Source: a virus
Length of the DNA stretch: 21,273 bases
Strand: one strand, 5' to 3'
IMG/VR virus record: IMGVR_UViG_3300005549_000035
Coordinates: 1 to 21,273 of that record
The position numbers were made by a program, and so were the translations under genes. The notes beneath the pieces are model-generated. The model ran no database searches and was not told the DNA's origin. It saw only the letters and a list, made by a program, of their open reading frames with translations. How positions within the stretch are numbered: position 1 is the stretch's first letter; each line of letters begins with the position of its first letter. Shown piece after piece: positions 1 to 16,931 of the stretch.

Positions 1-3000
1 AAAAACTGCCACTCTTCCCGTCGGCGCTTAATGGCCCGCTCGTAAAGGATCCGCTCTTCCGGCTCGAGGGATCGGACAAACTTGCGCTCGAGATCCTTCG
101 ACTCGTGGAAGATGGGCTTGCGCATAATCCCCAACCCCTCGCCAATGGTCGGGCGCATGCGCTTCTTTATGTCGGCGTCGTGGTCAACCAAGGGGCGCAA
201 TTCCTGAATGGCTTTCATGGATGCGTCCGGGTCACGGTCAGCCAGCGCGGCGTCCAAGCTGCGGTATTTACTGATCGGATATACCGCAGTCAGGTTGCGC
301 TCGTAGTCGGCGCGCACCTTCGGATCCTTGTTCTGTTCCAGCCACTTGGTGTGGATGTCGGCGAGCTTTTCGTTTGGGTCAAAGCGCCCGATGCGCAGTC
401 CCACGGTGCCGGCCATTTGTTCCCACCACTTGATAGCGCCGGGCCGTTCCGCCCCAGAGACGCCGCGCACCCCCGGCAGCGACCGGATCGAAATGGGGAT
501 TGGCTGGGTGGCCAGTTCCTTGGCCGTCTGGCTGGCGGTGACCTTGCGCCCGGCGTAGTCCACACGACTGAGAAACTGCAGCGCGCCCTTGCCGATAATG
601 GGGGAAAGGCGGCTGTGCAAGAACTGCCACCCGTGGTGCATCATGTCGGTTAAATCCTGGGGAATGGACCGGATGCTGTAGCGGCGGGTGCCAACGGTGA
701 ACTCGAAGGGGGAATTTTTGTCCCACTCACCGCCCGCCAGCGAGGCGGCCGTAAACGCCGCGGCGGCTTGGCTGAGCGCCAGGGTGGACAGAGCCAGCAT
801 TTGTTCCCGGCCAGCCTTGGCACCGGTGGCACCGGACAGGGCTTGGCCCAAGAACAGCGTGCGGGCGGCCAGGAAATCAGGTGCCAGCAACCCCAGTTGG
901 GCAATGTGCAGAATCGTGGGGTTGACGCTGAAATCCGCCCAATTGAGGTGCCCGTAAGCGGCATTGGCCTGCTCGGCCGAGAGCGCCTTCACGTCCTCAG
1001 CCTTGAGCTTTCCCTGCTGCAACTGCTTTTCAAACACGCGGTTGTTGCGCTCGAGGATCGCCTCGTAGGTTTTGAACTTGAGCCCGGGAATGTACTGGTG
1101 GAACAGGTAATTCGAATACATGTCCGCCACCGGGCCCAACCCGGGGATCTTGCTCACCAAGCCGCTCGTCCTAAACCCTTCCATGAATTGCTGTTGGCTG
1201 GCCCGGTCCGGCAACAGCATGAGCCCATGCCTGGCTGCGTCCATTTGCCTGGGATCGGTGGTCAGGTTCACCTTGGGAATGTTCCCGAACGGGTTTACCC
1301 GGTGCCCCAAGCCGTGAGTGCCCGTCTGCACCTGGTGGAACGGCGCCAGCAATCCGAGCATGGTCCGCTTGGTCTCGCTGTTGAAGGCGTCAAGGAAGTG
1401 GACGATTCCCTTGGGAATGGCCGCCAGCCGGGTGGTTGGCGTCTGATACCACTCGCGAATTGCCGACTTGCCCAACACGTCCTTGAGCCGGTTATACGCC
1501 TCGGGGTGCAGGGCGACGTCGGCTTTGACGAAAATATTGTTCCCAGCCGAATCCTTGGTGACCCACTTCCAACCCTGTAACGCGGGTTGATTGGGAATCG
1601 TTTTGTAGGTGCTGAAGTCTTCCTTGGCGCTCTTGGGCAGAACCAGGGTGACGCCCGGCTCGGTGGCTGTGTCGGGAATACTCATGCCGCCGCCCAACTT
1701 GGTGACAAGCGGCTCGCCGTCCGAGGCTTTGCCCTTGCTCATTTGCTGCACCATTTCGCGGGCGGCAATCACCGATTCCATCTCGTGCATGTAAACCGGC
1801 AGCAGTTCGGAAATGTCCTTGGTCTTTGGTTTATACCCAGCCTGTTCACCGTCAAAAAACGTGGGGAACGAACTGGCCTTGGCGAACTTGAACTTCTCTT
1901 TGAGCGTGCGCCCGGTGCTGCGCTCGGCCCCGCCCACCCCGCTGCCCAAGTCCCAAATCTGGGTAACGTAGTTCTGTTTGAACGTGTCGAGAACCCCGGA
2001 ACCCTGACCGCGCTGGCCGAGCCGGTTGTAACGCCCGCGCACCTCGTTGGCCACCGCCACCTCAGCCGGGGTGAGGGTAAGAGCCGCCTGATACCCGGCT
2101 TTGAGTTTCTTATCGGTGGTGGCCGCCATGCGCTGCTGCAGGGTAGCGGCGTCACCGTCGGCTTGGATCCAGTTGGTGATGCCCTCGCGGCGGACCTTGT
2201 CGGGAACGCGCTCGCGAATATCCACCCGGGCGGCAGCGGCGTCGCCGAATGACTTCTGCAGTTTGGCCGACCAGTTGAGCACGCTGCGCCGGTAGTCGGT
2301 CATTTTGCGGGCCTTGAACGCCTCTTCCCCCAGTTCCTTGGCGCCCTTCTGCGCTTCCTCGGCAAAGCCTTTGACCTTTTCCCACGACGCTTTCACCGCC
2401 GGTGCGGCGTTGTTGAACATCGCCTGCAGCGGCTGCAGGTTTATGGCCCCGGCTTCCCCCGCCCGCGGGCGCATGGGAAGGGTCTTCTGTCTTTCTTCGG
2501 CGGATTTTAAAAGTGCTTCTGTCTGGCGAATCTGCCGTTTCAAAACAGTCTGCAATGGCCCCTCGCCTGCACCCTGTGCCACCAGCAATTGAGAACGCTG
2601 TTTTTCCAGAAGCGCCTTGAGCCGTTCCGGATTGGCCCCCTCAGGGGCAGCTTGCCCAAGATATTCACGCCGCGCCTGGGCGTACTGCGTCAGCGTTTCG
2701 TCCTCACCGCGGGCACGGAATGGCGGCTTTTCTTCCTCTGGCCGCAGGCGTTCCTCGGCTGGCCGCGGGCCTTCCTGCACTTCCGGCGGAAACTGGTCCC
2801 GGTGAGCTTCCCGGCGAATGACTTCAAGTTCGCTTGAGATCCGCATGGCTTCACCCAGCGCCGAAACGGAAACGTCTTTGGGCGAGCCAAACAGCTTATG
2901 AACCAAGTCGACGAATTTACCCCAAACATTTTTGGCTGCACCTTTGCCGCCCTTGTATTCCAGGTTGGTCAGCCAATTCTGAATCCGCGGGTTGGAAGAC

Positions 3001-5210
3001 GCCTCGGACAGAAACTCATGCACGTTTTTGAACGTGTTGTGCCCTTCAAATTCAGTGCCGCCAGCTTTCTCTTTGGCATAGGCAAAGAGCACATCAAGTT
3101 CCCCCTGCAGCGATTCAGGTGCCTGATTGTATTTGCTGGTGACAGCGTTGTGAACCAGTTCATGAGTCAGGGTTTGAAGAAAGTCGGCTTGGTTAATTGT
3201 CTGCCCGCTATTATCTTTGGACAGAACCTGAACTATTCCCTCGCGATTGCCTTCCCGCAGGCGGAAGCGTCCGCGAAATTGAGACCCGCCGTAAAACTGC
3301 TGCCGCTCGTAAGGCGACATGTCAATAATTTGGATGGGTTCCAGCGGGTGGGCCGCGTCGGGTTTGAGCAAATGCAACAGCAGCTTGTTGACAGCTTCAC
3401 CGCCGTTTAGTTCGCCGCTCTCTATTGCCTGGGCCAGCTTGCGCTCGTCCAGCAACCCGTTGCCTTTGGTAGTGAACTTCTCGTGTTCAAAAGTCAGGTG
3501 CTCGTTGCCGAATTTCTGGCGGTAGGTGTTTTCCGACTGCGACACCATTCGCTTGATATTCGTACTTCGTCTCAGATCCTCAAACTGCTTCCATATATCC
3601 TGAAATTCTTGGGTGTTGGCTTTTCCCTCACTAATCAGTTCCGCCATTCGTTTGCCGATATCCGCATGTTCCTCTGGCGACAAATGTTCCTGGCCAGGCT
3701 TGGGCGCTTCCGGCGGCATGCCACCGTACTTGTTTTTGATCGCCTCGTTGCGTTTCAGGATGTCTTGGACTTCGGACAGGTCTTTGCCTTCAGCTTTGGC
3801 CTTGGCGAAATCTTCCTGCACCTTCTGCCACTGTGCCCAATCTTCTGGGGTGGCGTGGTAGGTGGTCCCCATCGGATCACCGGTGAGCGGATTCTTGAAA
3901 CGCGAGGTGCTCAACCGCGCAACTTCTGGCTTGGCACCTTCGGCGGGCGCCAAGTGTTCTTGCGTCAGTGGTACTTCACGTTCCCCCGGCGCTTCTGCGC
4001 GTGGTGCGCCACCCTCGTTTCCGGGTGGTAACTCGCTTGGTGGAATTCCTGCACGACCTTCTTCGGCGGGCACTTGCCCTGCGCGCTGCCCGGGTTGTTC
4101 CGGCACATCTCGAAGAACTTGCGCTGCTTGTCGCTCTTGTATGGCATTTGATTCCCTTTCGTGTTCGGCCAGAGCCTTCAGTGACTCTGGCAATTCCAGC
4201 CGGCTTGGGCGTTGCGGCTGGGCAATATCGGTGGTGAGCCGGTCGACTTGGTTGAGATAGCTGGGGTCTTCAAGCCACCGCTGCCCCTGTTGCCGGGCGA
4301 AAGATTCCCGCACCATGTGCGGAATGTGCGGTGCCTCAAACGCGAGACTCGCGCCAATCTGCTCGGCCAGCATATCCGCACCCTTGAGTGGATCCTGCTG
4401 ATACGCTTCGATCAACCCGGGCGCGTTGCCAGCCGCCATGAGCGCGTTTAGGAACACTTGCCGGCCACCGGCTTCACCCGCCGCCAGGGCCGCCTTTTCA
4501 AACACTTCCGGCACAAAGCCAGCCGCCCGACCTGCTAACACCGCGCCCCCTGCCGCCCCTAGTTCGCCAATCCCCGGCATGAGCGCGCCAACCGTGCCTT
4601 GGGTGATCGCCCGGCCAATGTCGCCAGAGCGTTCCAATTCACTCAGTCCCATTTGGCCGCCGAACGCCACCGGCGCGGGCACCCCAAGACTCGTGGCCGC
4701 AAGCCCTGGCACCATTTCGCCAGCGCCTCGGACTGCCCCTTCAGCAATGCGGGCACCCAACCCGGAAGTCTGATCGATGTTGGAAACGTGCTGGCCGCCA
4801 AGCGCCTGGTTCAACAGCGGAAACTCGCCGCTCTGAATGCCGCCGGCACCGATATCAGAGACAAAGCCAACACCTGTGTTCCCGGCAAATTCCGTGGCTG
4901 CGTGCACCGGCTTGGCCAGTGGCCGCAGCGCCGAGCCAACGGGTCCGAGCGGGTTCTCTGGGGTGAGTGACCAAGGCTCGACCACGTTGCGCGAGAGAAA
5001 GCCATACATGTTGGCTTGCCGCTCTGCTTCCTGGCCCGCTGCCTGTTCCTGCAGCATGCGCTCGTAGTCGCTGATTTCACTACGGACCATCGGCTGGCGC
5101 ATGCCCTCAGGCATCATGAGCCGCGGGGGCGGGGCGATGTCTTCCCACGGGATCCCGTAGTCGTCGGGGGCGAACTCTTCTTCCAAACCGTCTGGCAGTT
5201 CAACGGGCAT
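1..5210 (-). CDS. Giant internal virion / large polyvalent-type protein with HExxH metallopeptidase-like domain (partial, C-terminus beyond the left edge)
   Basis: I translated this frame by hand: it is open from ATG 5210 to the window edge, giving 1736 codons without a stop. The start overlaps the upstream stop as TAATG. Residues 19-22 are GIPW within an acidic context, a motif shared with the gene at 6220-7254. Residues ~65-200 are Gly/Ala-rich and hydrophobic-helical. Residues ~355-416 form a Pro/Glu/Gln-rich linker. A zinc-peptidase-like HELVH lies at 683-687, followed by EFLSEASSNP with Glu736, a pattern known in large phage and mobile-element polyvalent proteins. The rest is mostly helical and charged. 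Around 1477-1510 there is a hydrophobic stretch, then RRYSIRSIP and a D-Y-A-G-R segment typical of the C-terminal parts of such proteins. No Cys codon was found. By position it corresponds to T7 gp16, an ejected core protein; that role is inferred. Peptidase activity is not proven. Confidence 0.82.
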   Translation of the reverse strand, partial: MPVELPDGLEEEFAPDDYGIPWEDIAPPPRLMMPEGMRQPMVRSEISDYERMLQEQAAGQEAERQANMYGFLSRNVVEPWSLTPENPLGPVGSALRPLAKPVHAATEFAGNTGVGFVSDIGAGGIQSGEFPLLNQALGGQHVSNIDQTSGLGARIAEGAVRGAGEMVPGLAATSLGVPAPVAFGGQMGLSELERSGDIGRAITQGTVGALMPGIGELGAAGGAVLAGRAAGFVPEVFEKAALAAGEAGGRQVFLNALMAAGNAPGLIEAYQQDPLKGADMLAEQIGASLAFEAPHIPHMVRESFARQQGQRWLEDPSYLNQVDRLTTDIAQPQRPSRLELPESLKALAEHERESNAIQERQAAQVLRDVPEQPGQRAGQVPAEEGRAGIPPSELPPGNEGGAPRAEAPGEREVPLTQEHLAPAEGAKPEVARLSTSRFKNPLTGDPMGTTYHATPEDWAQWQKVQEDFAKAKAEGKDLSEVQDILKRNEAIKNKYGGMPPEAPKPGQEHLSPEEHADIGKRMAELISEGKANTQEFQDIWKQFEDLRRSTNIKRMVSQSENTYRQKFGNEHLTFEHEKFTTKGNGLLDERKLAQAIESGELNGGEAVNKLLLHLLKPDAAHPLEPIQIIDMSPYERQQFYGGSQFRGRFRLREGNREGIVQVLSKDNSGQTINQADFLQTLTHELVHNAVTSKYNQAPESLQGELDVLFAYAKEKAGGTEFEGHNTFKNVHEFLSEASSNPRIQNWLTNLEYKGGKGAAKNVWGKFVDLVHKLFGSPKDVSVSALGEAMRISSELEVIRREAHRDQFPPEVQEGPRPAEERLRPEEEKPPFRARGEDETLTQYAQARREYLGQAAPEGANPERLKALLEKQRSQLLVAQGAGEGPLQTVLKRQIRQTEALLKSAEERQKTLPMRPRAGEAGAINLQPLQAMFNNAAPAVKASWEKVKGFAEEAQKGAKELGEEAFKARKMTDYRRSVLNWSAKLQKSFGDAAAARVDIRERVPDKVRREGITNWIQADGDAATLQQRMAATTDKKLKAGYQAALTLTPAEVAVANEVRGRYNRLGQRGQGSGVLDTFKQNYVTQIWDLGSGVGGAERSTGRTLKEKFKFAKASSFPTFFDGEQAGYKPKTKDISELLPVYMHEMESVIAAREMVQQMSKGKASDGEPLVTKLGGGMSIPDTATEPGVTLVLPKSAKEDFSTYKTIPNQPALQGWKWVTKDSAGNNIFVKADVALHPEAYNRLKDVLGKSAIREWYQTPTTRLAAIPKGIVHFLDAFNSETKRTMLGLLAPFHQVQTGTHGLGHRVNPFGNIPKVNLTTDPRQMDAARHGLMLLPDRASQQQFMEGFRTSGLVSKIPGLGPVADMYSNYLFHQYIPGLKFKTYEAILERNNRVFEKQLQQGKLKAEDVKALSAEQANAAYGHLNWADFSVNPTILHIAQLGLLAPDFLAARTLFLGQALSGATGAKAGREQMLALSTLALSQAAAAFTAASLAGGEWDKNSPFEFTVGTRRYSIRSIPQDLTDMMHHGWQFLHSRLSPIIGKGALQFLSRVDYAGRKVTASQTAKELATQPIPISIRSLPGVRGVSGAERPGAIKWWEQMAGTVGLRIGRFDPNEKLADIHTKWLEQNKDPKVRADYERNLTAVYPISKYRSLDAALADRDPDASMKAIQELRPLVDHDADIKKRMRPTIGEGLGIMRKPIFHESKDLERKFVRSLEPEERILYERAIKRRREEWQF
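3965..4147 (-). CDS. Small phage protein of the MP[YF]KS-x-x-QR type, nested out of frame inside the giant gene
   Basis: This 60-codon ORF is shifted +1 relative to the giant frame on the same strand. It begins MPYKSDKQRKFFEMC and continues with GKCPPKKVVQEFHQAS. This matches a recurring small phage/prophage protein pattern known to me: Met-Pro-[Tyr/Phe]-Lys-Ser, Gln-Arg, an aromatic pair, then a Val-x-x-[Glu/Asp]-Phe-x-x-Ala segment. That similarity is from memory, not a search. Upstream of the ATG is AAAGGGA with a 5-nt spacer, a better Shine-Dalgarno candidate than most genes here have. In the giant frame the same DNA encodes a low-complexity, Pro/Glu/Gln-rich linker, as expected if the giant ORF reads through a pre-existing small gene. 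The final ~20 residues are less typical of the family. Function is unknown; it may be basic and nucleic-acid binding. Chance resemblance is the alternative. Confidence 0.55.
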   Translation of the reverse strand: MPYKSDKQRKFFEMCRNNPGSAQGKCPPKKVVQEFHQASYHPETRVAHHAQKRRGNVKYH

Positions 5211-6211
5211 TACGGTTCCAGGTCTTCGTCGTCCGCGGCGGGCTCGAGATCCTCTTCGTCGGTCGGTGGCTCTTCTTCACCGGGTTCAAGCTCGTTGGCA
5301 GCCAGTTCTTCGGGCGGAATGTTTTCCATTTCCTTGCCCGCTGCTTTCTCAGTGGACGGTGCAGTCATGTCCTCAAGCTCTTTGAGAATACCGTCTCGCT
5401 GTTTTTTGAGCAGCTTCTCTTGGGCGGGGCTGTCCGGTTCTTCGATCAAACCCTTAATGACAGCCAGCCGGTCGGTCAGAATTTTGGCTCGCTCGGCCAG
5501 GGTCATTTGCGGCCGCACAGCTTGCACACCGCCATGGGGCCCGCGAATGGCCATGCCGCCAACTGGCTTCCCAGACTCGTCCAATATCGGTTGCGCTGTA
5601 ATTGGGCCAGTGGCCACGCCAGCGGCGGCTCGAGGCGCAAATGTCGGCGTGCCCGTCCGCGAATTTACCAAGTAGGATTGGCCGGCGGCGTTGGTCGCCT
5701 CTTTGGGCATTCCCACCGGCGTCACTGCGCGTAGTGTCTGGCCAAGCGCCTGTGGTTTGTCGGCAAACAAATTGGGCGCGTTCTCGGCCAGAAGCTTCTC
5801 GAGTGGCACGCCCGCTTTCAGTCCTTCCTGCACCGCCTTCATGCCTTCCATTTTGCGGGCGGCTGAGGCGGCTTCCTGTTCGGCGGCTTTCTCGCGTATG
5901 CGCAACTGACGTTCAAATTGTTGGGCGCGCATCGCTTGCTGTTCCCGGCGCATTTGCAGCTGGGCAGCATGCTGGGCAAGCTCGGCGTCGCGGGTCTCTT
6001 TCAATACCTGGGCATGGCGCTCGCTGGCCCGTTCCTGCGCGGCAAGCCGGGCGTTCTGCATTTCCTGCTCTTGCTGCAGCCGCTGGTATTGGATCTGCGC
6101 GTTGCGCTCGGCGATGGCTTGCGCCCCACGCTGGGCGTTGGACCGCTGCAAAATCCGAGCCGGCTCGATTGGATCAATCCGCAGCCAGGGGGGCATTGTC
6201 ACGTCAGCCAT
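5210..6211 (-). CDS. Probable internal virion (ejection) protein, coiled-coil rich
   Basis: This 333-residue protein starts MADVTMPPWLRIDPIEPAR. Residues ~20-130 are extremely rich in Gln, Arg, Glu and Ala with heptad character, suggesting a long coiled coil. A Gly/Ala/Pro-containing middle follows, then a second charged helical region at ~235-285. The C-terminus is very acidic and ends with two EDLEP units. It has no cysteine and no signal peptide or membrane segment. The ATG lies 8 nt after the previous stop, and its own stop overlaps the next start (TAATG), so it is probably translationally coupled to the giant gene. Its place between a gp14-like and a gp16-like gene suggests the role of T7 gp15, a core protein ejected into the host. 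That is inference from order and composition only. Confidence 0.72.
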   Translation of the reverse strand: MADVTMPPWLRIDPIEPARILQRSNAQRGAQAIAERNAQIQYQRLQQEQEMQNARLAAQERASERHAQVLKETRDAELAQHAAQLQMRREQQAMRAQQFERQLRIREKAAEQEAASAARKMEGMKAVQEGLKAGVPLEKLLAENAPNLFADKPQALGQTLRAVTPVGMPKEATNAAGQSYLVNSRTGTPTFAPRAAAGVATGPITAQPILDESGKPVGGMAIRGPHGGVQAVRPQMTLAERAKILTDRLAVIKGLIEEPDSPAQEKLLKKQRDGILKELEDMTAPSTEKAAGKEMENIPPEELAANELEPGEEEPPTDEEDLEPAADDEDLEP

Positions 6212-6219
6212 AGAATTGG

Positions 6220-7254
6220 TCAGTAAGAGGATTCGTCATCAAAGCCGCCGGCAGAGGAATAGTCCCACGGGATCCCGAAGTCATTCGGATCGTCGCTCAC
6301 CGGCTGGTTGTAATCCCACGGGATTCCGTAGTCGTTGACGTCAGTGCTGGAAGAAGTGTCCCACGGGATCCCAAAATCCTCTGGGTTATCACTAACCGGC
6401 GCCGATGAATTCCAGGGGATTCCGTAATCGTCGGGTGTCCAAGCGCCATTGTTGTAGGGGATACTGCCATAAGGTGCGGGATTCATGCCCGCGTTTTGTC
6501 CCATGGGGGATCCTGCGGTTCCTCTGCCAATTATCGGCGGACCTGAACCCGCACCAAAACCAACCCCGCCCCCGTAACGCTTCAAAATGTCGTCCACTGA
6601 ACTGCCCGCGCTGGCCCCGCCGCCACCGTATCGAATGCCGGGCGTCCCGCCGCCCCCGCCGCCACCGCCCCCGCCGCCGGCTGCCGCTCGCGCCCGTTGG
6701 TAGGCGTCCTCTGGCACCGGCGCGGCCCGGTATTGGTCGGCCCGGTTCTGCGCGTCCAATTGGTGGTTGATGATCCCGGTGACATCGGTCGGGCCCACCT
6801 TTGGGATCAACCCCTGAATGGCCCCCAAGCCAGCGAGCGCCTGGTTCTGCACGTCGTAGCGGGTAAGGCCGATGTCGCGCAACAGCTTGGTGTTTTCCAT
6901 CCCGCTGCCAGAGAAACCGCCGCCCACGGCGCGCTCGGCCGAGTTTTGCTGAAGCTCGGGCAGCAAATCTGAAATATCACCGGCAGCGCGTCGCCCGACA
7001 TTTCCCAGCAGTGTTCCAAGCACGCTGAAATAGTCGCTGGGGTACTGTTTGCGCAGCGCATCCAGCGCGCTGCCGGTGAGTCCACCTTGAATGGCGGTCA
7101 GGTCGCCCAAGTTGCCCTTGACGGTTCCTATCGGCGAAGTGACCCCGGGAATGCCGCCGCTGGCCCGGTTGTAATCGCGAGGCGGGGCGCCGGTGAGTCC
7201 ATACCCACCACCACCGCCCACACCGCCACCAAAACGTCCACCTGTTACGGCCAT
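6220..7254 (-). CDS. Probable internal virion protein with poly-Gly tract and four D-[YF]-G-I-P-W repeats
   Basis: This 344-residue protein starts MAVTGGRFGGG. The Gly-rich N-terminus is followed by a helical region (~45-190) containing GSGMENTKLLRDIGL and NRADQYRAAPVPEDAYQRA, resembling phage internal virion proteins that sit between tail genes and large ejected proteins. An uninterrupted poly-Gly run lies near residue 200. The C-terminal third is Pro/Gly/Asn/Asp-rich and ends in four repeats centred on GIPW at 278-281, 295-298, 310-313 and 327-330. The same motif occurs at residues 19-22 of the giant protein two genes downstream. There is no cysteine. The start lies 4 nt after the previous stop with no clear Shine-Dalgarno sequence. 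By order it matches T7 gp14; this is inferred. Confidence 0.75.
   Translation of the reverse strand: MAVTGGRFGGGVGGGGGYGLTGAPPRDYNRASGGIPGVTSPIGTVKGNLGDLTAIQGGLTGSALDALRKQYPSDYFSVLGTLLGNVGRRAAGDISDLLPELQQNSAERAVGGGFSGSGMENTKLLRDIGLTRYDVQNQALAGLGAIQGLIPKVGPTDVTGIINHQLDAQNRADQYRAAPVPEDAYQRARAAAGGGGGGGGGGGTPGIRYGGGGASAGSSVDDILKRYGGGVGFGAGSGPPIIGRGTAGSPMGQNAGMNPAPYGSIPYNNGAWTPDDYGIPWNSSAPVSDNPEDFGIPWDTSSSTDVNDYGIPWDYNQPVSDDPNDFGIPWDYSSAGGFDDESSY
6262..6432 (-). repeat. Four tandem protein-coding repeats encoding [DN]-[DE]-[YF]-G-I-P-W
   Basis: Four copies are spaced 17, 15 and 17 codons apart at the 3' end of the 344-aa gene, and the DNA itself is similar between copies. The copy at 6314-6336 matches 21 of 23 bases with 5143-5165 in the giant gene, so the related motif is preserved at nucleotide level between two separate genes. 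Confidence 0.9.
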
Positions 7255-8313: not shown

Positions 8314-9780
8314 TCAGGGTGGTGTCAGTGGACGCACCGTTAGAAAGCCGTTGAGCGTGCCGGCAAAGACGCCGGTGGCCGTGCAATAGATTCTCACCGT
8401 GTTGACGCCCGACGGCAGCGGCAGCGTCACCTGGAAGTTGTAATTGCCGTTGGCAGCGCCCACCGGACTGGGGTGGTCCACCCCGTTCAGACGCAGAATC
8501 GCCTGGGTGTTGACCACGACAAACCCGGCCACGGTCCAGCTTATATCCAGGGTGAAGTCATACGGATCCTGTTGCGGGTTGCAGATCTGGGCGGTGGCTT
8601 CCACAAATGGGCCAGCCGGATCCACGCCCGTGAACACGCCGTCACCGGCGGCAATGGCAATCGTCCCGGCAGCCGGCGGGGAAATCTGGGTCCACGCCGC
8701 ATCGGCAATTGAATCAGCTTCACCCATGCAATCGACGCCGGAAACCACCTCGAGAGAAAATTGTTTCGTGCAACTGACCGGTGCCCCGTTGCAGGTGGCG
8801 TCACATTTAAGGGTGAAGGTGAACGTGTCTTCCTCGGTGGGCGTCCCGCTCAAAGCCCCGTTTGAAGCCAGCGTAATTCCCGGGGGCAGCGTCCCGCCGA
8901 TCTGAGTCCACACCTCGCTGGATACGCTCGCCGGATCCTGCACCAAGGGGGTCATGTAAGCCTGGCCGTTGGTCGCCTCGGGCAGGGTCGCCCCCGTCAC
9001 AATTTCCATCACGCAAATGGAAAGCGTCTTGGTGTTGGTCACCCCGCGGGCGTCAATCACCTCAACCTCGAAGGTGAAGCTGCCGCTGGCCATGGGCGTG
9101 CCGCTGATAACCCCGGTCGAACTGTTCAGGTCCACCCCGGGCGGCAGGTCGCCAAAGAAATTCCACTCGTAAGAACCATCCGAAAACGTGGTCCCGCCGC
9201 TGGCTTGCAGCCGGGCGCTGTAGCTGTCCCCCAAGCAAATGCTGGGCAAGCTATCGGTGATGAAACAGATCTGCTCTAAAATGGCCCGCTTGCAGGCGAG
9301 CGACTTGGCTTTCTCGTCGGCTTCCGCCTGGGTGAGGGCGACCACGGTTCCGGCAGCCACTTCGCCGGTGAAGGATTGCCCATCCGGACAACTGACGTCG
9401 CATGTCTGGCGCCGATTGCGGAACACCCGCACCGGACTGCGGGGGTTGTTGATCGGTATGTCGTCGGGATTCCCGTTGCCCTTGCGCTTGCCGTTCGGCC
9501 CCGGGGGTATGGGCGGCTGGTGGGGCGGTTGCCACGTTCGCCAAACGCACAATGACGACGAGCGCCGGGCGCAGTCGTTGGCTTCCTGCTGTGAGACCTG
9601 AGAGAAGCAGATCGTTTTGCAACCCAACTGCGCGTAAATCACCCCTAATGGCGGGTTGCCGCGGAAATCGCGGAAGGCCACGAAAACGTCAACATCCGGA
9701 TTCTCTGCCGTCAGATTGGCAATGGGCGAGTCATTGCACGGAAGACACGAGTTTAAAACTAGGTTGCAAGGAACGATCAT
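8314..9780 (-). CDS. Cys-rich structural protein with two He_PIG/Ig-like domains
   Basis: This 488-residue protein starts MIVPCNLVLNSCLPCNDS. The ATG overlaps the nozzle-gene stop as ATGA. About 19 cysteines are present. Residues 1-80 are Cys-rich, followed by a Pro-rich stretch (81-115). Residues ~127-175 carry CPDGQSFTGEVAAGT and TQAEADEKA, similar to the C-P-x-G...A-G-T...Q-A-x-A-D pattern seen in DUF5977-like repeats; a degenerate earlier copy may lie at ~53-80. Two Ig-like modules follow at ~183-258 and ~262-346, each with the He_PIG signature L-P-P-G-[VI]...G-x-[IL]-S-G-T-P. The C-terminal ~135 residues look like a beta-sandwich. The likely role is a surface-exposed tail or decoration protein, possibly binding host glycans. 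Position between nozzle and adaptor supports virion location. Confidence 0.68.
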   Translation of the reverse strand: MIVPCNLVLNSCLPCNDSPIANLTAENPDVDVFVAFRDFRGNPPLGVIYAQLGCKTICFSQVSQQEANDCARRSSSLCVWRTWQPPHQPPIPPGPNGKRKGNGNPDDIPINNPRSPVRVFRNRRQTCDVSCPDGQSFTGEVAAGTVVALTQAEADEKAKSLACKRAILEQICFITDSLPSICLGDSYSARLQASGGTTFSDGSYEWNFFGDLPPGVDLNSSTGVISGTPMASGSFTFEVEVIDARGVTNTKTLSICVMEIVTGATLPEATNGQAYMTPLVQDPASVSSEVWTQIGGTLPPGITLASNGALSGTPTEEDTFTFTLKCDATCNGAPVSCTKQFSLEVVSGVDCMGEADSIADAAWTQISPPAAGTIAIAAGDGVFTGVDPAGPFVEATAQICNPQQDPYDFTLDISWTVAGFVVVNTQAILRLNGVDHPSPVGAANGNYNFQVTLPLPSGVNTVRIYCTATGVFAGTLNGFLTVRPLTPP

Positions 9781-12227
9781 ATAACAACGGTCCAGCCGCG
9801 TCCGCTGAGAGTGGCCATGTTCGCCGCGGATAGCGAGGTATCCAACCCCACCAAGAACACCTGCCCATTGTTTAAGCCATTAGCAACGAGTTGGCCAAGG
9901 ATCGAGTTTACGGTGGCCGCGCTGAACAGGTTTACCGAAAGTTCCAAAATCACCACGCCCACCGGCAGGGTGGGAATGGTGGTGAGTTGGTTCCCGCCCA
10001 CTTCCACGTCAGTCAGACTGGAAGGCAGATTGGTGATCGACGTGATGAAATTTGAGGAACAGGCGAACCGGGTCAGGTTACCCGTGGTCGGCAGCGCCGG
10101 AATGGAAATCAGGCTGTTGGAATTGACGAGGATCGTTTCGGTGTCGACCAAAAGGTTCAACCCGGTGATCGCGCTCACAGCGTGGCCGGTCACCTCGAAA
10201 TAACCCATGTCGTTCAGATTGGCTGTGGACAGGAACGTAGCCAAATCGCCAGTGAAGAAGTTCCCGACGTTGTCTTCCCAATAGGCGCTGGCGGTGTCGG
10301 GCGTCCAGCTGATCGCGCTGACCGGCGGTTCCGGTTCCGGTTCCGGCTCTGGTTCAGGCTCTGGCGTTGGTGTTGGCGTTGGCGCCGCGGACGTAGAGGC
10401 GGAAGCCGATTCTGTTTCAAAGAAATTCGACGGGCCGCATACGCAACTCTTGTAGGGCTCTTTGGCCCGCGGCTGGGCGAACACGCGCAAGCCCCGCAGC
10501 CGGCACCACCCTTTGATCGTGAGCCGGATCTGGAACTGATACCCCTCGGTGGTGGGCCGGGCGTTGTTGGGTTCACACTGGTTTGGCGGCTGAGGCAATG
10601 TGACGGTGGCTTTGAAACCCTCGCAGTAGGGTTGCACCGGGTAAGCCGGGCAAGTGACCGCCTCGGGATCTTCACGGCAATCTTTGGCGGTGCATTGCTT
10701 CCAGGCGTGCCACATGATCCAACACGGATTCTGGTCCACCTTGTATTCCACCATGAAATTGACCGTGCCCAACATCTTGTCGAACCACAGTTCGAGTCCA
10801 TCCAGCTTTTTGAGCATGAACGGATCGCCCCAAGTGTAGGCAGGCGTTTCGATAAACCACGTCACCCGGTCCCCATCGCCGTTGACCTGACTATCCCAGC
10901 GGTTCTGGGTGGTCATTTCCCACAGGTCAATATTCCCGGTGAGCTTGCTGACGATGAAAGAAAAACCACGCGGCAACCCGCCAAAGTCACCTGAGAGCAG
11001 CTGCAGAAAATACAAACCCTCGTACATCCCTTCCCACGCCGGCGGCATCCGGTTGCCGATGGTTCCCAGCAGATCAAAGTCCAGCAGCGTGACCGCCTGA
11101 AATGCCACCCCCTTGAGCGTCTGGAACGGGACCGCTGACTGCCAGAGCCGATTGTCGAAACTCATGCCCGTGGAAAAGCGCATTAACTCACGGTCGTTGA
11201 ATTGCAACAGGCGACCGACAGGCGTGCTGATGGGCACGTTTCCCCACTGGTCGAAATAGCGCACGGCTACCGTCAAGCTGCGGATCCCGTCCATGGCTTG
11301 GTAAAACAGGTCGCCGTTGACGGGCACGACGCACCGGTCCCCCACCGAGCCGAAATCAATTTGTATCACCCGCTGCAACGGCTCGCGCAACAACTTCCAC
11401 TCGGCCCGGGTCGGCGGAACGTCGGTCGCGTAAATTGACCGGCGCGTGAAAACGTAAAGCTGGCCCTGGCCAAGAGCGGTATTGAGGTTGGCTGAGTGCC
11501 GCAGGCAACGAATGTTGCCGGCCATGGTGGGAACGATGAAGGCGTCCCCTGCCAGGGAAACCGGGTTCTCGGTGTCCTTCAGAATCGAGTCCCGGTAATT
11601 ATACGCCGGGGTGCCTGATACCTGGCTGCCCACAATGTCCCCGCCGGCATACTGGCGCCCGAAGGCGTACCAGATCCGGCCCATGTAATAATCCATCGGG
11701 CCAGCCGCCTTCAGTTCGTTGCCGGGATTGCCCACACCCAGAAACCCCTTGGACCGGCGCAGCGTGGCCCCATCCCAAAACAGCGGCAGGGTAGTCAGGT
11801 CGCCAGCCTGAATGACGAGGAACTGCTCGCCCTGAACGAAGAAATATTCCGGCTCGTTGGGCGGCATGGCCGTGCCGGGGAAAGCTGAGGTCAAGTTCAC
11901 CACCGAGTTATCGGTGTCGACGTTGATCCGGTAAATCTGCCCGCCAATGGCAGCGATAAGGTAGGGATTTGCAAACGGCGGCTCGTAGAGGTAGGCGCCC
12001 TGAAAAATTCCCTGCCAAGGCACATTCTGAACAAGTGGCCGCCAGCCCGTGCGCTGCAACACCCCGCCACCGCGCATTGTCGCATTGGTTGCCCAAGCCA
12101 GCTGATTGCGTTTCAGTCCGGTTTCAAATCCAGGGGAAACAATTGTGGGGACAACGCCAGAGTCAATTCCGGCAATCCAATCAAGCTGGCCGTCAACAAT
12201 GCGAACTGTGGTGCCGTTAGTGGCCAT
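9777..12227 (-). CDS. Tail nozzle-like protein with Pro-Glu linker and C-terminal leucine-rich-repeat domain
   Basis: This protein has 816 residues from the ATG at 12227 (MATNGTTVRIVDGQLDW). An upstream in-frame start at 12320 would run into the divergent terminase gene and is less likely. Residues ~1-590 have the character of podovirus nozzle (tail tubular B/gp12-type) proteins: NQLAWATNATMRGGG near the start, then repeated beta-rich blade-like segments with conserved WY and GD motifs. Residues 616-635 are a Thr-Pro/Glu-Pro linker. Residues ~699-760 hold about three 20-residue LRR-like units (LTRFACSSNFITSI, LTDVEVGGNQLTTI). The C-terminus ends NSILGQLV...LSGRGWTVVI, a common ending of phage or environmental LRR adhesin modules. 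Twelve cysteines are present. The LRR part is probably a receptor-binding extension. It is the first gene of the run left of the terminase and has no evident Shine-Dalgarno sequence. Confidence 0.72.
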   Translation of the reverse strand: MATNGTTVRIVDGQLDWIAGIDSGVVPTIVSPGFETGLKRNQLAWATNATMRGGGVLQRTGWRPLVQNVPWQGIFQGAYLYEPPFANPYLIAAIGGQIYRINVDTDNSVVNLTSAFPGTAMPPNEPEYFFVQGEQFLVIQAGDLTTLPLFWDGATLRRSKGFLGVGNPGNELKAAGPMDYYMGRIWYAFGRQYAGGDIVGSQVSGTPAYNYRDSILKDTENPVSLAGDAFIVPTMAGNIRCLRHSANLNTALGQGQLYVFTRRSIYATDVPPTRAEWKLLREPLQRVIQIDFGSVGDRCVVPVNGDLFYQAMDGIRSLTVAVRYFDQWGNVPISTPVGRLLQFNDRELMRFSTGMSFDNRLWQSAVPFQTLKGVAFQAVTLLDFDLLGTIGNRMPPAWEGMYEGLYFLQLLSGDFGGLPRGFSFIVSKLTGNIDLWEMTTQNRWDSQVNGDGDRVTWFIETPAYTWGDPFMLKKLDGLELWFDKMLGTVNFMVEYKVDQNPCWIMWHAWKQCTAKDCREDPEAVTCPAYPVQPYCEGFKATVTLPQPPNQCEPNNARPTTEGYQFQIRLTIKGWCRLRGLRVFAQPRAKEPYKSCVCGPSNFFETESASASTSAAPTPTPTPEPEPEPEPEPEPPVSAISWTPDTASAYWEDNVGNFFTGDLATFLSTANLNDMGYFEVTGHAVSAITGLNLLVDTETILVNSNSLISIPALPTTGNLTRFACSSNFITSITNLPSSLTDVEVGGNQLTTIPTLPVGVVILELSVNLFSAATVNSILGQLVANGLNNGQVFLVGLDTSLSAANMATLSGRGWTVVI
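10323..10382 (-). repeat. Short repeat encoding the Thr-Pro / Glu-Pro linker of the nozzle protein
   Basis: Three TP and six EP dipeptides are encoded by six-base near-repeats (GGTTCC and GGCTCT types on the plus strand). The repeat sits exactly between the nozzle-like part and the LRR part of the protein. Such DNA can change length by slippage in whole-codon steps. Confidence 0.88.
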
Positions 12228-12268
12228 GAGCTTGCACGGTAAGCACTGCGCTAATAAGGTCAACTTCA
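12228..12268. promoter_or_regulatory. 41-bp divergent intergenic region between terminase and nozzle genes
   Basis: This is the only gap between two genes transcribed away from each other. On the minus strand there is a TTGACC box at 12259-12264 without a convincing -10 box. On the plus strand TTGCAC (12232-12237) and TAATAA (12252-12257) are present, but their spacer is only 14 bp. AAGG precedes the terminase ATG by 9 nt. An imperfect inverted repeat (AGCAC-T-GCGCT) lies between. A compact bidirectional promoter is possible; no element is conclusive. Confidence 0.3.
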
Positions 12269-14050
12269 ATGGCCAACTACGTTTCCCTCTACGGCGCCCG
12301 CTGGGAACCTCTTCTTTCACCCGTCACCGTTGAGGCAATTATGATCCGGCGCGGTGGTCGCTGGAAGAAAACCAAGAGCGCGGAATACGTCGGCAACGGT
12401 CTTTACTTCCACTTCAAACGCTTCATCAGCTTGATTTGGCCCGAGCACATTTGGCACCGGTGGAACGAACTGGAACTGGAAGCGTACCTGAACCACCGGA
12501 TCATCGGCGAGATGGGCCCGGCGTCCAGCGGCAAGACGCACTCGGCGGCCATTCACGTCCTGGCCGATTACTACGTGTGGTTTGACTGCACCACCGTGTT
12601 GGTTTCGTCCACCGAACGGGAAATGCTCGAGATGCGCGTTTGGGGTGAAATTAAGAAGTACCACCGCATGGCCAAGGACAGGTTCCCCAATATCATCCCG
12701 GGCAATTTGCTCGAGAGCCGGCTGCGCATCGTGAGCGATAGCAAATGGGACGCTGAGGACGGCCGAGATTTCCGCAACGGCATTTGCGGGGTGCCCTGCA
12801 AAAAGGGCGGCAGCTACGTCGGCTTGGGCAGCTTCGCCGGTATCAAAAACAAGCGCGTCCGCATGGTCGCCGACGAGTGCCACCTCATGCACCGGGTTTT
12901 CGTCGATGCGATCAGCAACCTGAACAAAAACGCGGATTTCAAGTGCGTCGCGCTGGGCAACCCCAAGGAAACCACGGACGCCCTTGGCATGATTTGCGAG
13001 CCTGCCGCGCACCTGGGCGGGTGGGATGGTGGCATTGACCAAGCGCCCAAAACAAAGTCGTGGGCCACCCGCTTTGATCAGGGGATCTGCGTACAGTTGG
13101 TCGGCAGCGACTCGCCCAATCTCGACGGCAAGTTGGGTATCCCGCTTATCGAGCAGAAGTCCATTGACGCGGACATTGCCTTTTACGGGAAAGACTCGCT
13201 GCAGTTCACCATGATGAACGAGGGGCGCATGCCCCGCGGCCAGGGATTGCGCCGGGTCATCACTCGCCAAATGTGCCTGAAGTTCGGCGCTATGGAAGAA
13301 CCGCTGTGGAAGAATACCAACCGCACGCAGATTGCCTTTCTGGACGCGGCTTATGGCAGCATCGGCGGGGACCGCTGCATTTTCGGGCGGCTCGAGTTCG
13401 GCATGGACCCAAACGACGTCCAGCTGTTGGCGCTGTTGGAAACCATGATCGTCCCGGTGAGCGTCGAGGTGGACGAGATACCCGAGGACCAAATTGCCAA
13501 TTTCGTCAAAAAGCGGTGCGAGGAAAACGAGATCCCACCGCACAATTTCGGCTTCGATTCCACCGGACGCGGGACGCTCATGGGCGCGTTCGCCAGAATT
13601 TGGTCCCCCTACGTGGTGCCCATTGAGTTTGGCGGGAAACCTTCCGAGCGCCCGGTGACCTGGCTGCCCACGGACCAAAAGATAACCTGCCGTGATTACT
13701 ACTCAAAGTTTGTCACCGAACTGTGGTACTCGGTTGCCCTCACCATTCAGAGCCGCCAGTTCCGGGGCATGACCGAAGAGGTGATGAACGAGGGGTGCAT
13801 GCGCGAGTGGGGATTTGTCGGGGCCAACAAGATCGAGGTTGAGCCCAAGGACAAAATGAAGCTCAAAACGGGGCGCTCGCCCGACTTGTTTGACGGCTTG
13901 GTCACAGGTGTGGAAATGGCCCGGCGGCTGGGTTTTATCATCGCCACCATTCGAGCGAAGGATTCCACCATCAAAAACGACGAGTGGAAAAACGTCTATC
14001 GCGAGCGCATGCAGCGCCTCGAGACCAACCACCGGCTCACCTACACCTGA
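12269..14050 (+). CDS. terL: Terminase large subunit (DNA-packaging ATPase/nuclease)
   Basis: This 593-residue protein powers packaging of phage DNA into the prohead through the portal and cuts the concatemer. Walker A GPASSGKT is at 83-90 and Walker B RMVADE at 198-203; an LGNP coupling-type motif is at 229-232. The RNase H-fold nuclease half has candidate metal ligands D359 (IAFLDAAYG), D430 (FGFDSTGRG) and D539/D542 (SPDLFDGLV). Start 12269 has AAGG 9 nt upstream. An alternative start at 12341 (MIRRGGRWKK) has GAGG 5 nt upstream, so the first 24 residues are uncertain. It is the only clear plus-strand gene. Its stop abuts the stop of the minus-strand gene at 14051 with no base between, and it diverges from the nozzle gene across 41 bp. 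No small terminase is seen nearby. Confidence 0.93.
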   Translation: MANYVSLYGARWEPLLSPVTVEAIMIRRGGRWKKTKSAEYVGNGLYFHFKRFISLIWPEHIWHRWNELELEAYLNHRIIGEMGPASSGKTHSAAIHVLADYYVWFDCTTVLVSSTEREMLEMRVWGEIKKYHRMAKDRFPNIIPGNLLESRLRIVSDSKWDAEDGRDFRNGICGVPCKKGGSYVGLGSFAGIKNKRVRMVADECHLMHRVFVDAISNLNKNADFKCVALGNPKETTDALGMICEPAAHLGGWDGGIDQAPKTKSWATRFDQGICVQLVGSDSPNLDGKLGIPLIEQKSIDADIAFYGKDSLQFTMMNEGRMPRGQGLRRVITRQMCLKFGAMEEPLWKNTNRTQIAFLDAAYGSIGGDRCIFGRLEFGMDPNDVQLLALLETMIVPVSVEVDEIPEDQIANFVKKRCEENEIPPHNFGFDSTGRGTLMGAFARIWSPYVVPIEFGGKPSERPVTWLPTDQKITCRDYYSKFVTELWYSVALTIQSRQFRGMTEEVMNEGCMREWGFVGANKIEVEPKDKMKLKTGRSPDLFDGLVTGVEMARRLGFIIATIRAKDSTIKNDEWKNVYRERMQRLETNHRLTYT

Positions 14051-14260
14051 TTACTTGGGCGGCGGTTCTGCTGGCGCCGGCGATTTGGGTGTAAGGAACG
14101 CGCCAAGGCCCATGAGCCCTGCCGCGGTGAGCCATTCGCCAGCGGTCCACACACAATCTGAAGCGCCAACGTGCTTCTCAATGTAGGTGCCCAAAACCAC
14201 CAACCCGGCGCAAATGATCGGCTTGGGATTGTGACTGATCGACGCGAAGAGTTCTTTCAT
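14051..14260 (-). CDS. Small membrane protein, holin candidate
   Basis: This 69-residue protein starts MKELFASISHNPKPII. The ATG overlaps the previous stop as ATGA. Two hydrophobic stretches, at ~14-26 (PIICAGLVVLGTY) and ~43-57 (WLTAAGLMGLGAFLT), could form two membrane helices. The short C-terminal tail is PKSPAPAEPPPK. Small size, two hydrophobic segments and position at the end of a late gene run fit a holin or other phage membrane protein, but no family is recognised and no endolysin is adjacent. The frame extends upstream to 14737, but that part overlaps the coupled gene at 14257-14730 and is not used. Its stop directly abuts the terminase stop. Confidence 0.6.
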   Translation of the reverse strand: MKELFASISHNPKPIICAGLVVLGTYIEKHVGASDCVWTAGEWLTAAGLMGLGAFLTPKSPAPAEPPPK

Positions 14261-14730
14261 GGTCTTTGTTCTAGCAGAATTACCCCGCGGTAAAAGCCAT
14301 TCGTCATCGACGGCGCCACCGATTGGGAAATGTTGGTCCACAAGCCGCCAAAGGGACGGTCCGACTTCTGCAGGGTGAAGGTCACCACGTTGCTGTCCCG
14401 CACGCTCAAAGGCGGGGCGAAATAACGGTTGGTCCAGTTGACGGCGTTGCTGGGCAGGCTCTCGAGGCCCGCGGCGTTTCTGGCGGTGACGGTGAACACG
14501 CTCGGACCAAAGACAAAGTTGGTCACCGCTAAGGTCACCTGGCTCACCGTGCTGGTAACCATCACACCGCTTTGGACCATGGGATTGCCGCTGGCCGGGT
14601 GCCAATACAGGGTATAATTGACCACGTTGGTTTCTGGGCTTGGATCCCATCCCCAAGTGATCGTTGGAACGGGGGCAAAAACTCGAAACGCCAGCGCCAG
14701 GACGGCAGTGGCGGTGGCGGTAACTCTCAC
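14257..14730 (-). CDS. FnIII-like protein with signal-peptide-like N-terminus
   Basis: This 157-residue protein starts with GTG; the start overlaps the upstream stop as GTGA, which supports this choice over later Met codons. The N-terminus is a short basic start, then a hydrophobic run (VTATATAVLALAFRVFA), resembling a Sec signal. Next comes one fibronectin-III-like domain (~22-100), with TITWGWDPSPETNVVNYTLYW and later FTVTARNAAGLESLPSNAV, typical of bacterial secreted proteins. The C-terminal third (FTLQKSDRPFGGLWTNIS) is beta-rich and unassigned. It may be an exported or virion-surface adhesion protein. Cys is absent. Confidence 0.65.
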   Translation of the reverse strand: MRVTATATAVLALAFRVFAPVPTITWGWDPSPETNVVNYTLYWHPASGNPMVQSGVMVTSTVSQVTLAVTNFVFGPSVFTVTARNAAGLESLPSNAVNWTNRYFAPPLSVRDSNVVTFTLQKSDRPFGGLWTNISQSVAPSMTNGFYRGVILLEQRP

Positions 14731-15506
14731 GTACCAATTAACCCATGTGCGATAAGAGCGTCAACGACACTCTTTACAACCTGCGCTAATTGAGCGGTGG
14801 TGCAGGTGCCGGTATCAAGGCCGCCGGCGTTCTTGTTGGCGGTGCCGGCAAAGGTGGTCCAGCCGGTGTTGCGCGGGCCAACCACTTGCGTGCCAGCGAC
14901 GGCAAACACAGCAGCGTTGCGAGCGTCAACCTGCGCGTTGCTCACCCGCAGTGCTTCCGTGGCAACGCCAAGAATGGTGGAAATCACCCGAAGTTCCGAG
15001 GTGCGCGTGGCGTGAGCGGCCACATTCCACAAGCTCGAGAGCCGCACTTGCTGCTGGCGGTCGGTCGTGTCCGAGTCCGCCCGAAAGTCCACCGATACCC
15101 CGTCATTGACTGCCCCGCCACCGGCCCCACCGCTGGTCTCGTGGTAAGCCTCGAGCGCCACTGGCTGGGTATTGTTGTTGGCGTCAACCACATTAACCTG
15201 GGTAAACCCCGATTGAAGGATCCCGTAATTGGAATTGTCTGCCAGACGGATTTGCAGCAACCCCGCGCTCACCCCAATGGCTGGAAATGAAGCGGTGGTG
15301 CCGCCAATTTGCAGAGCTGTCTGGCTGTTGGTCAGAACGAGGGCACCGGTCATCGTGTCGCCAGCTTTTAAAACGAAGAGCATATTGGTTCCCCCGCCGG
15401 CCAGTTGGCACATTAACGAGACCTTCACCGCCTGCATTGCCCCCGGCGGGATATAAGCCAGGATGCAATTGGCTTCCTGCAGGATCTCATCCACATCGCA
15501 CGGCAT
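14727..15506 (-). CDS. Tail-fibre-like protein with N-terminal Cys module
   Basis: This 259-residue protein starts MPCDVDEILQEANCIL, 3 nt after the previous stop. Residues 1-36 are a copy of the Cys module found in three other genes here (C-D...A-x-C...P-P-G-A-[LM]-x-A-V...C). The body begins GDTMTGALVL, a phrase common in trimeric phage tail fibres, and continues with Gly/Ala/Asn-rich beta-repeat-like sequence. The C-terminus (TTAQLAQVVKSVVDALIAHG) is an amphipathic helix as seen at the ends of fibre or baseplate-attached proteins. It may attach through its N-terminal module to the same partner as the other module-bearing proteins; this is inferred. Confidence 0.65.
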   Translation of the reverse strand: MPCDVDEILQEANCILAYIPPGAMQAVKVSLMCQLAGGGTNMLFVLKAGDTMTGALVLTNSQTALQIGGTTASFPAIGVSAGLLQIRLADNSNYGILQSGFTQVNVVDANNNTQPVALEAYHETSGGAGGGAVNDGVSVDFRADSDTTDRQQQVRLSSLWNVAAHATRTSELRVISTILGVATEALRVSNAQVDARNAAVFAVAGTQVVGPRNTGWTTFAGTANKNAGGLDTGTCTTAQLAQVVKSVVDALIAHGLIGT

Positions 15507-15509
15507 AAG

Positions 15510-15746
15510 TCAGGGCGTCAAAATATCACAGAGGATCGCCAGCTTCACAGCGGCAAGTGCGCCCGGTGGAATGCACCCCAACAGGCAACTGGCTTGGGTG
15601 ATTAACGCCTGCGGGTCGGTGGAAATGACCGTGCCGTCCCGAATGGCGCAGAGCAAAACGATTTCGACGTAGGGGGCCAAGCCGGTGCTAACCAGGCAGT
15701 CAAAGCAGCTGGATTGGGAAATGAGGGTTGCCGGGTCACAAGCCAT
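15510..15746 (-). CDS. Small protein made of two tandem Cys modules
   Basis: This 78-residue protein starts MACDPATLISQSSCF, 3 nt after the previous stop. Residues 1-37 and ~41-78 are two related copies of the same module. The second reads TDPQALITQASCLLGC, then IPPGALAAVKLAILC, and is closest to the start of the next gene (259 aa). Six cysteines are present. It contains nothing beyond the modules, so the module can exist as a free-standing double unit, possibly a connector or cap for fibres. No family name is known to me. Confidence 0.65.
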   Translation of the reverse strand: MACDPATLISQSSCFDCLVSTGLAPYVEIVLLCAIRDGTVISTDPQALITQASCLLGCIPPGALAAVKLAILCDILTP

Positions 15747-15749
15747 AAA

Positions 15750-16730
15750 TCAGGCAACCTTTCGGATGCCAACGGCGCTAATTTCCAGAACGGCGTTGGC
15801 GTTGGTGAATGGCCAGTAAAAGTTGAGCGTGTCCAGCACCCCGGTGGACTCGTCGAAGAGCCCGGCAATGGTTCCAACCGATGTGCCCACAATGCCCTGC
15901 TCGGCATCAGTGGCGCTGCCAGCAGTGGTATTGGTCGCTTCCATGAGGCGCCCTATCGAGTTTTGCTGCCTGGACAATTCCACCTCGGCAGCCGCATTGC
16001 TTATTTCCATGTGGGTGTAAGTCACAGAGGAAGCCGCGTTGAGATAAACCGGACGCCAGATGTTGTAAACCAGCGCCCCGTGATACCCCTCGGTGGCCGG
16101 CAGACAGTGGCCGCTGCCGCCCGCACCCAGCAAAGTGGTGGTGTTCACGCGCCGGGTCACAAACCGGAACGCCGTGGACATGTTGTAATAGTTGATCAGC
16201 GTGCCGGCGGTGAAGGTGACGCCGTCGCCAGCGCCAGAGCCCCACCGCAAGCCGATGAAGTTTGCGCAAGTCGCGCTGGCCCCCATGTTGGTGGTTCCAG
16301 AGCAAATGCCCAAAAGAGGATCGGCAGCGGTCAGGTTGAAAGACGCCGAGCCGTTCAAGCGCCAAAGAACAGCGAGCTTTAGGCGGGACCACTTGTTTCC
16401 CCACGGCATCCGGCGACCGAACTGGCCATTGGAAATTTGCAGGGCCTGAAAAGCGCGCCCGTCGACGGCAGTGCGGGCCACAATGGTGCCGCCTGTAATC
16501 ACCCCAGTGTTGCCGGCCCACCCGCTGCCGGCGTTCAAGCTGGCCACCGCGCCCACGGCGTAGCCAGAAAAATCGTCCACAGCCAGATCATCGACAACAA
16601 CGCCATTGGCCAAACTGCGCAATTGAACGGCGGTGCAACTACCGGACGCCGAAGATTGGTCCAACTCAAACTGGGCAGAGTCCAAAATTGAGGTGACCGC
16701 GGTTAGTTGGGGAATGGTTTTGTTGGCCAT
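15750..16730 (-). CDS. Tail-fibre-like protein
   Basis: This 326-residue protein starts MANKTIPQLTAVTSIL, an N-terminus very common in phage tail-fibre or adhesin proteins. Residues ~50-310 form a beta-rich, probably jelly-roll or lectin-like region containing GRAFQALQISNGQFGRRMPW, LWRLNGSASFNL and YNIWRPVYLNAAS. The C-terminus is VLEISAVGIRKVA. The start is 3 nt after the stop of the 65-aa module gene. No catalytic motif is visible. It is probably a virion-surface or receptor-binding component; the exact fold is unassigned. Confidence 0.6.
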   Translation of the reverse strand: MANKTIPQLTAVTSILDSAQFELDQSSASGSCTAVQLRSLANGVVVDDLAVDDFSGYAVGAVASLNAGSGWAGNTGVITGGTIVARTAVDGRAFQALQISNGQFGRRMPWGNKWSRLKLAVLWRLNGSASFNLTAADPLLGICSGTTNMGASATCANFIGLRWGSGAGDGVTFTAGTLINYYNMSTAFRFVTRRVNTTTLLGAGGSGHCLPATEGYHGALVYNIWRPVYLNAASSVTYTHMEISNAAAEVELSRQQNSIGRLMEATNTTAGSATDAEQGIVGTSVGTIAGLFDESTGVLDTLNFYWPFTNANAVLEISAVGIRKVA

Positions 16731-16733
16731 AGT

Positions 16734-16931
16734 TCAATGCCAGATCCGCAGGTCACCCGCTTCCGTCGAACGAATGTCGGCCAATTCCGTAATACGGAAA
16801 TCACCCGACACGAAGCCGCCACCCTCAGCCACGTCGGCCAGAGCGCCAATGGTCGCTGAGGTCAGTTGCCCGGGCGAGAGCGCCAGGAACTGTGTGGCCT
16901 GGGCAAGCAGCGTGTTTGGGTCACAACTCAT
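16734..16931 (-). CDS. Small protein with a Cys-poor copy of the shared N-terminal module
   Basis: This 65-residue protein starts MSCDPNTLLAQATQF; the ATG at 16931 overlaps the preceding stop as ATGA. The N-terminal ~35 residues align with the module of the genes at 18912-19172, 15510-15746 and 14727-15506, but only the first Cys is kept and the central Pro-Pro-Gly is Ser-Pro-Gly. The rest (GGGFVSGDFRITELADIRST) is a short beta-like tail. The reading frame extends upstream, but that part overlaps the beta-helix gene. It may be a degenerate attachment module of the neighbouring fibre genes. Confidence 0.6.
   Translation of the reverse strand: MSCDPNTLLAQATQFLALSPGQLTSATIGALADVAEGGGFVSGDFRITELADIRSTEAGDLRIWH

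Follow-up and report, generated by a model that had tools for sequence, protein, structure and literature searches.

A short peptide motif shared by two neighboring, putatively internal virion proteins of an IMG/VR phage as a candidate docking tag

How the giant proteins of short-tailed phages are loaded into the head is largely an open question, and the locus described here raises it in a particular form: why should the same short peptide stand four times at the end of one virion protein and once at the beginning of a giant one, with a different gene between them? The window, i.e., the whole stretch of 21,273 nucleotides that was analyzed (positions 1 to 21,273 of the record IMGVR_UViG_3300005549_000035), encodes a terminase (phrog_2, E 2e-6) and carries on its minus strand a long series of virion genes, the last three of which code for a protein of 344 residues (p344), a 333-aa protein and the giant (Table 1). 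A 55,421-base contig of the same virus is 99.99% identical to the window over 18 kb, and the end of the window runs on into the start of that contig, which implies a map that is either circular or permuted in a circular fashion. With the overlapping contig the giant reaches a full size of about 1756 aa, ending in ...LWAQRGARPPKEVTPVP.

The gene order, with tail-like genes followed by a small, a middle and a giant gene both in the window and in its relatives, resembles that of gp14, gp15 and gp16 of phage T7, and it is on gene order only that p344 and the giant are designated here as putative ejection or core proteins. Profile comparisons with T7 took in p344, the 333-aa protein, the C-terminal region of the giant and a 375-aa protein; hhalign gave the three putative core proteins probabilities of 0.3%, 0.1%, and 3.4% against gp14, gp15, and gp16, respectively, from shallow alignments that do not establish homology, and the 375-aa protein had no profile match to T7 gp11. 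Among domain collections, p344 matched nothing in PHROG and nothing above the cut-off in Pfam, the giant reached the cut-off of no domain in Pfam, PHROG, or NCBIfam, and none of the three proteins had a useful PHROG or Pfam family match. The PDB, searched with p344 and the giant, gave no useful match, and the INPHARED phages gave none. Bacterial and archaeal genomes, queried with the 375-aa protein and the C-terminal region of the giant, contained no match either, hence neither a host nor a prophage could be named. The AlphaFold models of p344 (mean pLDDT 41.5, poor throughout) and of the 375-aa protein (pLDDT about 41) were unusable for fold search.

Table 1. Features of the locus and of its relatives (window positions unless a relative is named).
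Feature	Sequence or extent	Position	Strand	Remarks
p344, putative internal virion protein	344 aa	6220..7254	-	ORF; homologs in about ten other contigs
333-aa protein	333 aa, acidic C-terminus	5210..6211	-	ORF; homologs found; lies between both motif-bearing genes, without GIPW
Giant protein	truncated by window edge	3..5210	-	ORF; completed from the overlapping 55-kb contig
p344 copy 1	DYGIPWN, in PDDYGIPW	6409..6429	-	8 residues identical to the giant copy
p344 copy 2	DFGIPWD	6358..6378	-	
p344 copy 3	DYGIPWD	6313..6333	-	
p344 copy 4	DFGIPWD	6262..6282	-	
Giant copy	DYGIPWE, residues 17-23, in EEFAPDDYGIPWEDI	5142..5162	-	
Double unit A	residues 275-306, copies 1+2	6337..6432	-	63/96 nt identical to unit B
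Double unit B	residues 307-338, copies 3+4	6241..6336	-	repeat of unit A
IDF[TIV][AP]D sites, L042		13683, 13725, 18507		
IDF[TIV][AP]D sites, L049		13124, 13166, 17384		
IDF[TIV][AP]D site, L095		1514		
IDF[TIV][AP]D site, L002		19904		

p344 consists of a conserved N-terminal part of about 200 residues, a Gly-rich linker and a C-terminal tail that bears four copies of D[YF]GIPW. A first-pass annotation of this DNA had pointed out the four GIPW strings at 17/15/17 spacing, one further copy at residues 19-22 of the giant, the different gene lying in between and an agreement of 21 of 23 bases between positions 5143-5165 and 6314-6336. All of these were reproduced: GIPW starts at residues 278, 295, 310, and 327 of p344 and once, at residue 19, in the giant, the intervening gene is that of the 333-aa protein and the base count is the same. 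The motif is rare by every measure applied. GGNATHCCNTGG occurs exactly five times in the 55,421-base contig, at the five known copies, and GIPW-coding sites outside the p344 and giant genes are absent from this contig. Composition alone predicts 2e-5 occurrences of D[YF]GIPW for the giant and 5e-6 for p344, and shuffling of the last 110 residues of p344 (200,000 times) never produced more than two GIPW. Copy 1 of p344 and the giant copy are the closest pair among the copies and have PDDYGIPW in common, for which the expectation in the giant is 3e-8; this octapeptide extends beyond the motif first pointed out and, among the matches listed, no longer peptide connects any two distinct genes of the 55-kb genome, once a capsid-like gene that was listed twice had been set aside. 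Across all IMG/VR contigs, more than one D[YF]GIPW motif was found in this virus only, the other 17 matches being single ones in short frames or in proteins without visible relation. The sharing of the motif is thus real and non-random.

The four copies in p344 are organized as two double units of 96 nt (32 codons), copies 1+2 and copies 3+4, and the comparison of these units tells whether the peptide or the DNA has been kept. For the second motif of each unit and its surroundings, 13 codons in all (VSD[ND]P[EN]DFGIPWD), all 7 silent sites have changed as against 3 of 32 replacement sites (Fisher P 8e-6), and over the whole 32-codon units the same comparison gives P 4e-5; despite low counts and saturation at silent sites, the direction is clear. 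The linkers, made of Ser, Pro, and Asp, have diverged whereas the motifs have been kept. With silent changes at saturation and the peptide nevertheless retained, it is the peptide that is under selection. The array in p344 is therefore an old duplication, preserved as a peptide while its linkers were free to vary; it is not of recent date and does not act as a signal in the DNA. It shows some of the features by which short linear motifs are recognized, namely a conserved peptide, variable linkers and purifying selection.

The same data bear on the view that a palindromic GGGATCCC core acts as a binding or recombination site and that the peptide is its by-product. Palindromes of 12 bp in the giant copy (ACGGGATCCCGT), 10 bp in copy 4 and 8 bp in copy 2 would fit such an element; in copies 1 and 3, however, silent changes break the palindrome with the peptide kept, and the changes fall mostly at silent positions. 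For the former reason the DNA-level reading was rejected; it is largely refuted and can be considered extremely improbable. The agreement of 21 of 23 bases between the two genes is not exceptional once the identical peptide and the codon usage of the genome are taken into account, its probability being 0.08 for one pair and 0.16 when the best of four is taken. Being mostly explained in this way, it adds little to the peptide match itself, and copying between the giant and p344 genes is possible.

A specific form of such copying has been considered, in which the p344 array was copied out of the giant gene and now competes with it, the p344 tail filling the docking site of the giant until p344 is assembled and thereby ordering assembly. 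The F-x-P-D that precedes the giant motif is common to the IDF[TI]PD of the relatives, making the giant site look older, and the PDD flank is also present on p344 copy 1. Against this, the codon agreement between both genes is within the expectation from codon usage and gives no direction of copying; we regard this scenario as quite unlikely.

Homologs of p344 or of its neighbor were detected in about a dozen IMG/VR contigs, and those of the giant in more. The first-pass annotation had proposed comparing repeat number and position in related phages, and had named absence of the motif from both proteins in close relatives, or a merely random duplication lacking conservation, as what would refute the proposal. 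The outcome is divided: GIPW is absent from p344 and from the giant in every relative found, but other short motifs stand at the same positions. Thus, the p344 tails of nine relative contigs have a conserved DFGGSxxYGGG (FGGS followed by [YF]GGG) at the place of GIPW, a motif found nowhere else in those nine contigs, and D[FYW]G is confined to the tails of p344, never appearing in the bodies. In most relatives the p344 tail abounds in Gly, Asp, and aromatic residues. In relative L110, a further lineage with a motif set of its own, an acidic-aromatic-Gly kernel is present in all three proteins (NEDYGG/DEYGG in p344, GDFGLPP in the homolog of the 333-aa protein and DDEYGPFPE at the N-terminus of the giant).

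The giants of the relatives carry other short acidic-aromatic peptides, often repeated, at their termini. In several relatives the N-terminus bears two copies of IDF[TIV][AP]D, and in the giants of four relatives it is found again at most 8 residues from the C-terminus. Taken singly these repeats are not significant against shuffled controls (P 0.07-0.28), and their support lies in conservation across contigs. When aligned, EEFAPD of the window giant is placed over the IDF[TI]PD of the relatives, with four extra residues after it in the window. Three divergent giants (L118, L050, and L126) have their own N-terminal peptide doubled or tripled beyond shuffled controls (ADPWEENLVV/APPWEQDLVV, ITFNPDDETV/LKFNPDDEVI, and PDVFDQA, respectively). 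Additional matches to LLDFTPD in relatives were dropped, as by position and frame they appear to be read antisense to the terminase gene. In L044, which is on the same contig as L002, the giant frame is split (14183-16938) into an N-terminal ORF of 382 aa and a C-terminal ORF of 1368 aa with other ORFs in between, one of them HNH-endonuclease-like by eye.

Whether p344 and the giant share a peptide as a rule was addressed by comparing the p344 tail with the giant N-terminus within and between genomes. The pair of the window scored 64, with no other pair exceeding 40, and in the other genomes the p344 tail was no closer to its own giant N-terminus than to the giants of other genomes. By this comparison of sequences the sharing is specific to this lineage, and the proposed reuse of one peptide by two partners is borne out in this virus but in none of the other genomes; it is not a family rule. 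In the only lineage in which the p344 tail motif has changed to GIPW, the terminal motif of the giant is also different, which constitutes one event.

These patterns could also arise from the lineage-specific growth of low-complexity repeats in fast-evolving disordered tails with a loose requirement for composition (acidic, aromatic, Gly/Pro), the giant copy being a chance or copied insert without joint function. That the letters of the tails vary among relatives, that sharing is limited to one lineage, that p344 tails are of similar composition in most relatives and that the tail of L110 is a loose array of such residues are all consistent with repeat growth. It accounts less well for a peptide conserved over saturated silent sites, for a string as rare as GIPW kept five times and for the conservation of DFGGSxxYGGG in nine relatives. 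On balance repeat growth is possible, though on the unlikely side.

The reading we prefer is that (P)DD[YF]GIPW[DEN] is a fast-changing short linear docking peptide located in the disordered ends of two internal virion proteins; it is the best of several explanations, with a probability of roughly 0.5, i.e., about even odds. This interpretation is based on short selected peptides that lie in variable low-complexity ends, several per chain, in two neighbors; on the octapeptide common to both genes, with diverged linkers and GIPW nowhere else; on the different conserved motifs that relatives have at the same positions of p344 and the giant; and on the fact that in the GIPW lineage the terminal motif of the giant differs as well. 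Against it stand the relatives, which lack GIPW in both proteins and show no likeness within their own pairs, and the single event to which the co-change amounts; moreover, the p344 model is too poor to speak for disorder or for a pocket. The motif-bearing ends are probably disordered, judging from their low-complexity composition and from low model confidence, the whole p344 model being poor. The docking peptide put forward in the first-pass annotation has in this way gained from the character of these ends, from purifying selection and from the variable linkers, and lost from the absence of the motif in every relative found.

In the proposed mechanism, the giant would present one copy at its N-terminus and p344 four copies on the variable linkers of its C-terminal tail, and both proteins would most likely dock into pockets of one kind, provided by a third component that belongs to the internal core or to the portal-tail complex. 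Several weak contacts of this sort may recruit the giant during head assembly and release it during ejection. In T7, the core is fastened to the portal in part by flexible loops of gp6.7 (PMC11784390). A tag common to internal proteins has a precedent in T4, where a short capsid targeting sequence (CTS) on otherwise unrelated internal proteins directs them into the head (PMC3012670). The likeness would consist of one short peptide on two proteins, here p344 and the giant only, whose internal location is presumed. The T4 CTS is N-terminal whereas four of the five copies described here are C-terminal, and the GIPW tag differs from it in position, in copy number (four in one protein) and in letters and is not classed as a member. 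Furthermore, a T4-type CTS is removed by the prohead protease, and no such protease was recognized in this virus.

A processing-site signal had been offered in the first-pass annotation as a second explanation. On this view a protease of the phage or the host would cleave both proteins at GIPW, or close to it, during maturation. The giant contains a zincin-like HELVH within LTHELVHNA (residue 683; window 3164, minus strand), and polyvalent virion proteins of phage P1 with such domains are thought to self-process (PMC5512222). The giant resembles the polyvalent proteins described there in size, in the HExxH zincin-like motif and in having its gene among virion genes, but unlike them it has no domain-model match at the cut-off, HELVH being the motif alone; docking peptides do not appear in the portion of that source considered here. 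The same source reports that N4 vRNAP, with the same domain, is packaged unprocessed. In addition, four close sites at the extreme C-terminus of p344 would be redundant, and the relatives keep no equivalent site. A processing signal thus found no support and is very unlikely.

An extension of the docking reading would be that the peptides are lineage-specific, rapidly changing acidic-aromatic "addresses", with one tag at the giant ends and another in the p344 tail of each lineage, both of which have switched to GIPW in this virus. We consider this unlikely. If true, nature would have swapped a tag here, an event from which the partner pocket could be defined, and such addresses could prevent a phage from packaging the internal proteins of a different one. 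In any case, a short tag with a known copy number, in two proteins that differ from their relatives at once, provides a small testable handle on the recruitment of the giant. A wider pattern to be sought in other phages is the presence of lineage-specific repeats at the N-terminus of giants and, in some, also at the C-terminus.

Two further features of the virion genes were observed. The 847-aa nozzle-like protein (window 9777-12320, minus strand) has an LRR-like extension at its end (residues 728-813), which matched phrog_21719 (E 3e-9) and, falling far short of the cut-off, an NCBIfam model that includes LRRs (E 2e-7). Nested in another frame within the giant gene is an ORF of 60 aa, MPYKSDKQRKFFEMCRNNPGSAQGKCPPKKVVQEFHQASYHPETRVAHHAQKRRGNVKYH (window 3965-4147, minus strand), homologs of which lie within the giant genes of three relatives or more (L042 14530, L047 15080, and L110 3581).
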